64,000 nt of DNA from NCBI RefSeq assembly GCF_041320705.1, contig NZ_JBGGTQ010000010.1:1-64000 (forward strand), given 5' to 3'. The notes below the pieces were generated by a model. It made no database searches, was not told the DNA's origin, and worked only from the letters and a program-made list of their open reading frames with translations. This document shows positions 32,409-46,654 of the stretch, piece by piece. Source of the DNA: Kineococcus mangrovi. Its GTDB lineage: Bacteria; Actinomycetota; Actinomycetes; Actinomycetales; Kineococcaceae. Each line of letters begins with the position of its first letter. The first letter of the stretch is position 1. The position numbers and the translations under genes were made by a program.

Positions 32409-33164
32409 TCAGTCCAGGTCGAGGTAGTGCTCGAGGCCGACCGTCACGCCCGGACGGGACGAGACCTGGCGCACGCCCACGAGCAGACCGGGCATGTACG
32501 CGGCCCGGTCGTAGGTGTCGTCGCGCAGGGTGAGGGTCTCCCCCGGGCCGCCGAGCACGACCTCCTGGTGGGCGGTCATCCCGCGCATCCGGACGGCGTG
32601 CACGTGGATGCCGTCGACGACGGCTCCCCGGGCCCCGGGCAGCTCCGTGGTCGTCGCGTCCGGCACGTCGCCCAGCCCGGCGTCGGCGCGCGCGGCCGCG
32701 ATGAGCCTGGCCGTGCGGATCGCCGAGCCGCTGGGGGCGTCCACCTTGTCCGGGTGGTGCAGCTCGACGACCTCGACGGACTCGAAGAAACGGGCGGCCT
32801 TGGCCGCCAGCTGCATGACCAGGACCGCGCCGATGCCGAAGTTCGTGGCGATGAGGACGTTGCGGTCGGCGGCCCGCGCCCAGGCGGTCACCTGCTCGAC
32901 GCGCTCGGGCGTGAACCCCGTGGTGCCGGTGACGACGTGCATCCCCCGTCCCAGCGCCCGTTCGACGTTGCCCATGACCTGGTCGGGCACGGTGAGGTCG
33001 ACGAACACGTCGCTGCCCTCGGCCGCGGCCGGGTCGTCACCGCGACCGAGGGCCGCGACGAGCTCGAGGTCGGGCGCGGCCTCGACGGCGGCGACGGCGA
33101 GCGACCCCATCCGCCCGCGCGCCCCCGCCACCGAGACCCGGACCGGGCCGGCGGAGCTGGTCAC
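32409..33164 (-). CDS. dapB: 4-hydroxy-tetrahydrodipicolinate reductase, 251 aa
   Basis: Reduces the DapA product in diaminopimelate/lysine synthesis. The nucleotide motif VAGARGRMG is at about residues 12-20, and the catalytic HHPDKVDAPSG with its His and Lys lies near residue 132. FVDLTVPD and GTTGFTPE complete the family pattern. The GTG at 33164 overlaps the M16 protease stop by 4 bp (GTGA), a conserved coupling in actinobacteria. Confidence 0.95.
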   Translation of the reverse strand: MTSSAGPVRVSVAGARGRMGSLAVAAVEAAPDLELVAALGRGDDPAAAEGSDVFVDLTVPDQVMGNVERALGRGMHVVTGTTGFTPERVEQVTAWARAADRNVLIATNFGIGAVLVMQLAAKAARFFESVEVVELHHPDKVDAPSGSAIRTARLIAAARADAGLGDVPDATTTELPGARGAVVDGIHVHAVRMRGMTAHQEVVLGGPGETLTLRDDTYDRAAYMPGLLVGVRQVSSRPGVTVGLEHYLDLD

Positions 33165-44334: not shown

Positions 44335-45105
44335 ATGGCCGTCCTGGACACGTTCTCGCTGACCGGCAAGGTCGCCCTGGTCACCGGTGGCTACCGCGGG
44401 CTGGGCCGGGCCTTCGCCCAGGCCGTCGCCGAGGCGGGCGCCGACGTCGTCGTCGCCGCCCGGAACGAGGAGGCCTCGGTGGCCGCGGCCGCCGAGATCG
44501 CCGACAGCACCGGCCGGCGCACCCTCGGCCTGCGGCTGGACGTCACCTCCCGCGCCGAGGTCGAGGCCGCCGTGGCCCGCACGACGCAGGAACTGGGCGC
44601 CCTGGACGTCCTGGTCAACAACGCCGGCACCTGCGTGCACCGCCCCGCCCTGGAGGTGACCGACGAGGAGTACGACGACGTCATCACCACCAACCTCAAG
44701 GGCGTGTGGCTGCCCAGCACCGTCGCTGCGCGCTGGATGGCCGGGCACGGCGGCGGGAGCATCGTCAACATCGGCTCCATCAGCGCCTCGATCGTCAACC
44801 GCCCGCAGCTGCAGCCGGTCTACAACGCCTCCAAGGCCGCGGTGCACCAGCTGACGAAGTCCCTGGCCGCCGAGTGGGCCCCGCTGGGCATCCGCGTCAA
44901 CGCCGTCGCCCCGGGGTACGTCAAGACGGAGATGGCACCCGTCGACCGGCCCGAGTTCCGGCGCATGTGGATCGAGGACGCGCCCATGCAGCGCTACGCC
45001 AGCCCCGAGGAGATCGCCGCCACCGTCGTCTACCTCGCCTCGGAGGCGTCGAGCTTCTCGACGGGGTCGGTGGTCGTCACCGACGGTGGGTACACGCTCT
45101 TCTGA
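44335..45105 (+). CDS. Short-chain dehydrogenase/reductase, 256 aa
   Basis: A classical SDR. The cofactor loop TGGYRGLG is at residues 17-24, NNAG at 95-98, the catalytic serine in the NIGSIS segment (145-150), and Tyr163 with Lys167 in YNASK. The C-terminal PEEIAATVVYLASEASSF and VTDGGYTLF are typical of carbohydrate/polyol SDRs such as gluconate 5-dehydrogenase. The ATG follows the dehydrogenase stop by 1 bp. A very long palindrome follows the stop and probably ends the transcript. Confidence 0.9.
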   Translation: MAVLDTFSLTGKVALVTGGYRGLGRAFAQAVAEAGADVVVAARNEEASVAAAAEIADSTGRRTLGLRLDVTSRAEVEAAVARTTQELGALDVLVNNAGTCVHRPALEVTDEEYDDVITTNLKGVWLPSTVAARWMAGHGGGSIVNIGSISASIVNRPQLQPVYNASKAAVHQLTKSLAAEWAPLGIRVNAVAPGYVKTEMAPVDRPEFRRMWIEDAPMQRYASPEEIAATVVYLASEASSFSTGSVVVTDGGYTLF

Positions 45106-45111
45106 CGCCTC

Positions 45112-45182
45112 CGCGGGTTCCGCCTCGTTGCCTCCCCGGGGCCGATCATCGGCCCCGGGGAGGCAACGAGGCGCAACCCGCG
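45112..45182. terminator. 71-nt near-perfect palindrome after the SDR gene
   Basis: Arms of 35 nt (45112-45146 and 45148-45182) pair with a single mismatch around one central base. The inner 25 bp are perfect. The stem is far longer than an ordinary terminator and begins 7 nt after the SDR stop. It would stop transcription in either direction. A second hairpin (45212-45232) follows. Confidence 0.7.
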
Positions 45183-45352: not shown

Positions 45353-46654
45353 GTGCTCACCCGCCTGCGCCGCACGCCCTTCGGCGTGCAGGTCCTCATC
45401 GGTCTCGTCCTCGGCATCGCGCTCGGCGCGCTCGCCCGCTCGATGGGCGGCACCGACGAGGACCCCAACTGGCTCACCACCACCCTGACCACCGTCGGGT
45501 CGATCTTCGTCACCATGCTGCGGACCCTCGTGCCGCCGTTGGTCGTGCTCGCCGTGCTCACCTCGATCGCCAACCTGCGCGAGGTGACGAACGCCGCACG
45601 GCTGGCCTGGCAGACGCTGCTGTGGTTCGCGATCACCGCGCTCGTCGCCGTCGGCATCGGGATGGGCATCGGCGTGCTCACCGACCCCGGCGTCCGGTCC
45701 TCGGTGTCGGCCGGCGCGGTGGAGGACCCGTCCTCGACGGGGTCCTGGCTGGACTTCCTGCAAGGCATCGTCCCGACCAACATCCTCGGTCTGCAGGCCT
45801 CCAACGGCTCCAGCGGCATCTCGCTGAACTTCAACGTCCTGCAGCTCCTCGTCGTCGCCGTGGTGCTCGGCATCGCCGTCCTGAAGGTCGGGGAGAAGGC
45901 CGAACCCGTGCTGACCTTCGCCCGCTCGGCCCTGGCCATCGTCCAGACCGTGCTGTGGTGGGTCATCCGGCTCGCCCCGATCGGCACCGTCGGTCTGCTC
46001 GGCCGGGCCGTGGCCACCTACGGGTGGGACGCGCTCAGCCCGCTGGCCGTCTTCGTGATCGACATCTACGTCGGCCTGGCACTCGTGCTGTTCGTCGTGT
46101 ACCCGGTGCTGCTGAAGGCCCACGGCCTGCGCGTGCGCAGCTTCGCCGCCGGGGTGTGGCCGGCGACCCAGCTCGGGTTCGTCTCCCGCTCCTCGATCGG
46201 CACCCTGCCGGTGACGCAGCGCGTCACCGAGGGCCTGGGTGTCCCGCGGTCCTACGCCTCCTTCGCGGTGCCGCTGGGCGCCACGACGAAGATGGACGGC
46301 TGCGCCGCGATCTACCCGGCCCTGGCCGCGATCTTCGTCGCCGGCTTCTTCGGGATCGACCTGTCGATCACCGACTACGTGCTCATCGCGTTCGTGTCCG
46401 TCGTGGGGTCGGCCGCTACGGCCGGCCTGACGGGGGCGACCGTCATGCTCACGCTGACGCTGTCGACGCTGGGTCTGCCGCTGGCCGGGGTGGGGCTGCT
46501 GCTGGCCATCGACCCGATCCTGGACATGGGCCGCACCGCGGTGAACGTCACCGGGCAGGCGCTCGTCCCGACGATCGTGGCCAAGCGGGAGGGCATGCTG
46601 GACCTGGCCCGCTTCCGCGACCGGCACGGCGTGCGCGAGACCGTGCCCGCCTGA
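45353..46654 (+). CDS. Dicarboxylate/amino acid:cation symporter (DAACS), 433 aa
   Basis: A GltP/DctA-type transporter that takes up C4-dicarboxylates or acidic amino acids with H+ or Na+. There are about eight membrane helices and two re-entrant loops. The hairpin-1 serine motif is SRSSIGTLPVT (about residue 280), TTKMDGCAAIYPA corresponds to the cation-binding TM7, and the substrate-binding TM8 has DPILDMGRTAVNVTG (about residue 385). The conserved Asp, Arg and Asn are all present. The GTG at 45353 has GGAG upstream. It is convergent with truB, with a strong terminator between. Confidence 0.92.
   Translation: MLTRLRRTPFGVQVLIGLVLGIALGALARSMGGTDEDPNWLTTTLTTVGSIFVTMLRTLVPPLVVLAVLTSIANLREVTNAARLAWQTLLWFAITALVAVGIGMGIGVLTDPGVRSSVSAGAVEDPSSTGSWLDFLQGIVPTNILGLQASNGSSGISLNFNVLQLLVVAVVLGIAVLKVGEKAEPVLTFARSALAIVQTVLWWVIRLAPIGTVGLLGRAVATYGWDALSPLAVFVIDIYVGLALVLFVVYPVLLKAHGLRVRSFAAGVWPATQLGFVSRSSIGTLPVTQRVTEGLGVPRSYASFAVPLGATTKMDGCAAIYPALAAIFVAGFFGIDLSITDYVLIAFVSVVGSAATAGLTGATVMLTLTLSTLGLPLAGVGLLLAIDPILDMGRTAVNVTGQALVPTIVAKREGMLDLARFRDRHGVRETVPA

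Follow-up and report, generated by a model that had tools for sequence, protein, structure and literature searches.

A dispersed family of gene-end palindromes in Kineococcus and a candidate partner gene bracketed by its copies

The REP and REPIN elements, which are moved by a RAYT (TnpA-REP) transposase of the Y1 HUH type, are among the closest described counterparts of the repeat family that we report here. Passages of one study (PMC3733652) give REP stems of 5 to 13 bp for the GTAG type and 8 to 9 bp for the CGTC type, with a terminal tag, and indicate that the CGTC repeats seem to have no dedicated transposase. Palindromic repeats that lack a known mobilizer are an open puzzle, and the present family, in a genus in which we found no Y1 transposase, has a candidate partner of a different kind. 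We favor, with a probability of roughly 0.6, a reading in which these palindromes form a REP-like dispersed non-coding repeat family whose partner protein is of a new type and probably acts in trans; a role in transcription termination, if any, would be secondary.

The window, by which we mean the whole stretch of DNA that was analyzed (64,000 nt from Kineococcus mangrovi, contig NZ_JBGGTQ010000010.1), contains one copy of the palindrome, and the features at this locus are as follows.

44335..45105, plus strand: upstream SDR (short-chain dehydrogenase) gene, matching adh_short_C2 at E 1.7e-66
45112..45182, no strand assigned: the whole near-perfect palindrome, 71 nt, with 35-nt arms about center 45147 (repeat search and folds)
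45122..45172, no strand assigned: the 51-bp family core unit, scored by covariance model R1 at 77.7 bits on both strands
45126..45138, plus strand: left A-subtype core, CGTTGCCTCCCCG (pattern search)
45156..45168, minus strand: right A-subtype core, inverted, at the fixed spacing of the family (pattern search)
45353..46654, plus strand: downstream dicarboxylate symporter gene (SDF family), matching SDF at E 1.4e-96

An earlier note, made from the letters of the window, had described a 71-nt palindrome directly after the SDR gene, and the repeat search bears this out: the arms (45112-45146 and 45148-45182) are 35 nt each and 97% complementary, with one mismatch and a single base between them, and the palindrome begins 6 nt 3' of the SDR stop codon (TGA, 45103-45105). 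The remark in the same note that it is much longer than a normal terminator also holds. Folding of the window palindrome gives -49.4 kcal/mol as DNA (z -13.1) and -76.9 kcal/mol as RNA (z -12.2); in neither case did any of 200 shuffles do as well. No U-tract was found after the stem at the window copy, the one copy checked. Weaker model matches elsewhere in the window, the strongest at 33004-33064 on the minus strand (27 bits), resemble coding sequence by eye and were rejected as palindromes.

A multicopy family with paired changes in its arms

The window palindrome is one copy of a fast-changing dispersed palindromic repeat family with a 51-bp core. Searching its own genome (G000) with the palindrome and its flanks, with 40 of 97 candidates scored, returned at least 33 strand-wise matches, self included, which fall at about 17 places; the core CGTTGCCTCCNCG occurs in this genome 13 times forward and 13 times in reverse, as opposed to 0 and 0 for the same pattern read backwards. 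Given these matches and this control, the palindrome is not a product of chance. Covariance model R1, built from an alignment of 51 hand-picked copies (A1), yielded at E 0.01 on both strands, with up to 150 candidates scored per genome, 42 matches in G000 and 47, 112, 66, and 60 in G001, G005, G006, and G008, the four other palindrome-rich genomes of the genus. These two-strand matches correspond to ~21, ~23, ~56, ~33, and ~30 copies, respectively. Six other genomes of the genus gave 0 to 3 weak matches each, and across 396 genomes of the order E 1e-6 was passed by those five only (15 candidates scored per genome, a depth at which weak copies may be missed). The genome search that the earlier note had advised thus uncovers about 21 family copies in the window's own genome. 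Conservation in relatives, which it had also proposed to examine, is partial, in that four other genomes of the genus carry the family and the window site is kept in one of them, G006, as subtype B, as against the six with few or no matches. Because the palindrome belongs to a dispersed multicopy family that recurs in five assemblies, the suggestion of a recent local inverted duplication is unsupported and an assembly artefact is unlikely.

The family consensus is N4-CGTTG with arms of 23 to 25 bp. Copies in G001, G005, and G006 have the same core but different letters in the outer and inner parts of the stem, one G006 copy (L062) has an altered right arm, and G008 has a subtype of its own (CGTTGTGACAACG). 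In copies whose arms are made by the exact 8-mers TTGCCTCC and GGAGGCAA, the starts of these 8-mers lie 31 bases apart. Several places in the window's own genome have extra half-copies, directly oriented and with a period near 30 bp.

Some related arrangements were observed alongside. Single-arm tandem arrays with a 30-bp period and similar linkers stand beside three copies (L010:5771-5883, L018:7004-7143, and L021:5883-6052), and G005 has tandem CGCGATCAAGGACCGGGTCAC-like units at L067:2105-2259, where G008 has a palindrome. A different palindrome, GCCCATCGTCGACGCGCTACGG, occurs at L010:4716 (G000) and L057:2493 (G006), loci that cover the same region.

Elsewhere, single short or weak matches were seen in G004 and G019 and one unpaired core in G003. 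The exact A-core pair pattern had four stray matches in a genome collection that may lack records near the window, approximately the chance number by our estimate, and one match in viral contigs, likewise about what chance would give. An Rfam scan of seven palindrome loci matched no family over the palindromes; its sole match, away from them, was a SAM riboswitch (RF00162, L021:473-565, minus strand, 65.9 bits). Literature titles and the openings of abstracts held no description of this repeat.

The two arms of the palindrome change together. The alignment of 51 copies is gap-free, 94.9% of its cells are paired, and 17 of the 23 arm pairs have changed on both sides. The covariation score is 0.496, compared with 0.129 in shuffles; none of 500 shuffles reaches it, and the same is true for any of five measures. 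Pairing above chance extends about five positions beyond the 51-bp core, and the positions adjacent to the center are less symmetric, as in a loop. These paired changes would fit the formation of a cruciform, which the earlier note had considered, or of a hairpin.

Placement of the copies and turnover of their subtypes

From 219 model matches in 100 loci we kept 108 distinct copies, dropping the decayed copy at L125 and the weak one at L073:3318; L130, L131, and L138 are among the loci outside this search. According to gene calls made with a simple script, a called stop codon lies within -10 to 60 bp of the 51-bp core in 78 of the 108 copies, and at 6 to 34 bp in 67. The copies are found in 37 convergent, 61 co-directional, and 9 divergent gene pairs, with one setting undefined; background gaps of the same loci (n = 258) comprise 50, 140, and 68, respectively. 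Convergent settings are enriched (37/107 versus 50/258, p 0.003) and divergent settings depleted (9/107 versus 68/258, p 7e-5). A scan of the 108 copies for target-site duplications over 140 length/offset combinations gave no clear signal; the filter retained two excesses, one for a 5-mer at offset 6 (5 copies, a count reached in 0 of 200 shuffles) and one for a 3-mer at offset 7 (10 copies, p 0.015).

The earlier note had raised a bidirectional terminator, and the family as a whole could be read in the same way, as plain bidirectional intrinsic terminators: strong GC hairpins that selection on RNA structure keeps at the 3' ends of genes and that are similar by descent. The position of copies just 3' of stop codons and their convergent bias agree with that proposal, as do the great stability of the window hairpin and the ordinary shorter hairpins that follow the SDR orthologue in G008 and G009. 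Against it, CGTTG and the fixed spacing are common to unrelated loci and to several species, the window copy lacks a U-tract, and some copies lie 5' of genes, including one before the gene that we call gene x. At the bldD site, moreover, the palindrome adjoins a separate GC-rich hairpin (by eye). Mispairs on the transcribed strand of the 61 co-directional copies comprise 42 G-U and 36 A-C, a difference without bias (p 0.57), so that there is no sign of selection on RNA pairing in one direction; in B. cereus terminators, by contrast, G-U is the intermediate in 89.5% of resolvable AU-GC switches, as stated in passages of PMC5381666. We regard terminators of the plain kind as an unlikely explanation. 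If the palindromes are instead dispersed repeats with a partner protein, effects on termination or on the 3' ends of mRNAs would arise as a by-product and allow copies to persist.

Sites common to several genomes carry different subtypes, with orthology judged among the fetched loci, which are part of each genome's copies. The window site holds A in G000 and B in G006, and both flanking genes are common to the two. After the SDR orthologue, G005 has a further subtype and a different downstream gene, and no hairpin was found in G001 or G007 at the threshold used; subtype CCGTTGACGCATCGGT occurs in G005 (L083 and L091), where it follows the SDR orthologue and also occupies the L013 site. The L013 site is A in G000 versus B in G006, the L016 site A in G000 versus C in G006, and the nusB, bldD, and L014 sites are D in G008 and A in G000 and G001. 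Within some genomes, almost all of the sampled copies are of one subtype (D in 21/21 from G008 and A in 16/17 from G001, counts biased by the way copies were found), and G005 and G006 have mixed subtypes with hybrid arms, A/B and A/C hybrids among them.

Since shared sites carry different subtypes, sites persist or are re-used while their letters are replaced. Descent with replacement is the simplest reading of these sequence comparisons, although repeated insertion at favored sites could also have replaced one subtype with another, as could general recombination. Sites also come or go, for the L011 and L020 sites are filled in G000 and empty in G006, and the L021 site is filled in G000, G005, and G006 and empty in G008. 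No precise empty site was seen among these three, as the intergenic flanks at L011 and L020 (G006) and at L021 (G008) differ too much.

Gene x and its bracketing palindromes

Gene x, which encodes ~311 aa, has a palindrome on each side in all five palindrome-rich genomes, and this bracketing occurs at two unrelated loci. In G000, G001, G006, and G008 the gene lies between nusB and bldD, with NusB and BldD as its neighbors, and these four brackets may represent a single ancestral event. The G005 homologue (61% identical) is bracketed at another locus, L154, where by eye its neighbors are a response regulator and a LacI-type regulator. The 5' palindrome is 110 bp from the gene x start in four genomes and 131 bp in G008; the stop codon is 1, 1, 6, 9, and 16 bp from the 3' palindrome across the five. 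When the two loci are aligned, the matches span gene x, extend into the 3' palindrome with G006, and leave the flanking genes unaligned; part of the G005 flank gives two short matches, of 49 and 32 bp, to the interior of gene x rather than to a corresponding flank. In each genome the bracketing palindromes belong to a subtype that resides there, and the 5' palindrome of G006 is an altered A. Within the genus, we surveyed the five palindrome-rich genomes and 800 kb, from a contig of 4.76 Mb, of the palindrome-poor G007, and in those 800 kb gene x, nusB, and bldD are all absent.

The interval between the 5' palindrome and gene x contains two or more TCCACA- or GCACAG-type 9-mers in six of six cases, Rhodococcus ruber (see below) included (L018:6894-7003, L060:4499-4608, L047:4485-4594, L114:2163-2293, L154:2948-3057, and L213:2824-2946), with one of each type in G005. 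We take these 9-mers to resemble DnaA boxes.

With dN/dS of 0.14 to 0.40 in 10 of 10 pairs, gene x is by this sequence measure under purifying selection. Its N terminus resembles the AbiEi-like winged helix PF13338 below the curated cut-off (4/5 members at E up to 1), and PADLOC AbiEi models match gene x at E 7e-11 and 3e-12 at best. Its C terminus matches PF18741 / REase_MTES_1575 weakly in 5/5 members, again below the curated cut-off. No NCBIfam family matches gene x. Against the PDB, a single sequence found only YhfX (4kbx, E 0.033, residues 107-206) and a profile gave as its best match the 'Mobile intron protein' 3r3p (E 0.36, residues 233-299), neither of them significant. Both 3r3p and REase_MTES_1575 are presumably Vsr/EDxHD-type nucleases. 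D239, E250, D252, and H257 are invariant in the five gene x sequences, and we would guess that they are catalytic. Gene x had no match in phages and no confirmed match in viral contigs.

A plasmid collection held one gene x homologue, 33% identical, on R. ruber NZ_CP145323.1, the one record on which the Rhodococcus evidence is based. It too is bracketed by palindromes, with arms of 26 and 22 bp and gaps of 123 and 14 bp, that have the CGAT/ATCG tip of many copies in the window's genus, so that the same bracketing is seen in two genera of different orders. The 74-kb record has six such motif pairs, all with one spacing (32 bases); four of the six passed the palindrome scan, three of these at convergent gene ends, where one overlaps an annotated 3' end. 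Although named plasmid pmega_4, the record carries serS, pks13, fadD32, and arabinosyltransferase genes and resembles a fragment of a chromosome.

AbiEi binds inverted repeats at its own promoter. The likeness of gene x to AbiEi and the palindrome 5' of the gene would accordingly suit a scheme in which the palindromes are operators to which gene x, or a paralogue, binds through its winged-helix part, the dispersed copies forming a regulon or serving as decoys. Against this, most copies lie close to 3' ends, divergent gaps have fewer copies than the background would give, and binding by a dimer needs no matching of variable positions between the two arms of a copy, yet they match. Operators are in our judgment quite unlikely.

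We return to the preferred reading, a repeat family with a partner acting in trans. We infer that gene x may act on the palindromes by cutting and copying. Its protein would recognize the palindrome and cause it to be copied into hairpin sites that already exist, or to replace what stands there, possibly by a cut that is then repaired from another copy, in the manner of a homing endonuclease. Overwriting of this kind would produce subtype switches at stable sites, hybrid A/B and A/C arms, and half-copies beside copies. If the gene x protein does act on the palindromes, short hairpins would have a novel means of spreading in bacterial genomes and overwriting them, and the concerted evolution of dispersed repeats would become testable in a simple system.

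Comparison with known systems

Like intrinsic terminators, the palindromes are GC-rich hairpins just 3' of stop codons; unlike them, the family shares its primary sequence and a fixed length across loci, shows no G-U bias, and has no U-tract at the window copy. Gene x has a weak winged-helix similarity at its N terminus to AbiEi, the antitoxin of a type IV toxin-antitoxin system, from which it differs in having a C-terminal region with nuclease-like similarity. That region is weakly similar to Vsr/EDxHD-type homing or restriction-like nucleases, but gene x was seen with neither an intron nor a host gene, and dispersed palindromes flank it.

REP/REPIN and RAYT systems and the present family both consist of short non-coding palindromes that number in the tens and lie at the 3' ends of genes and between convergent ones, the same kind of genomic distribution as that described for REPs in passages of PMC3733652, and in both the partner gene is flanked by repeats. 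The differences lie in anatomy and enzyme: the repeat here is a 51-bp near-perfect palindrome whose arms of 23 to 25 bp and consensus without a GTAG or CGTC tag depart from short tagged stems, and the flanked gene has an AbiEi winged-helix look and a nuclease-like end. A search at E 0.001 for the Y1 HUH transposase (PF01797, Y1_Tnp) found it in none of 11 genomes of the genus and in 5 of 14 controls, E. coli included. That the palindromes are REP/REPIN elements moved by a RAYT is largely contradicted for the present-day genomes, could be rescued only by a lost or very divergent transposase, and is to us highly improbable. Membership fails on the transposase and on repeat anatomy, and the two systems would work alike at most by analogy. 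More tentatively, and at somewhat less than even odds, we propose an undescribed actinobacterial class of repeats in which a winged-helix and nuclease-like protein, encoded between its own palindromes, would copy them into gene-end hairpins and overwrite older copies, with palindrome and protein matched within each species: a counterpart of REP/RAYT that operates without an HUH transposase.
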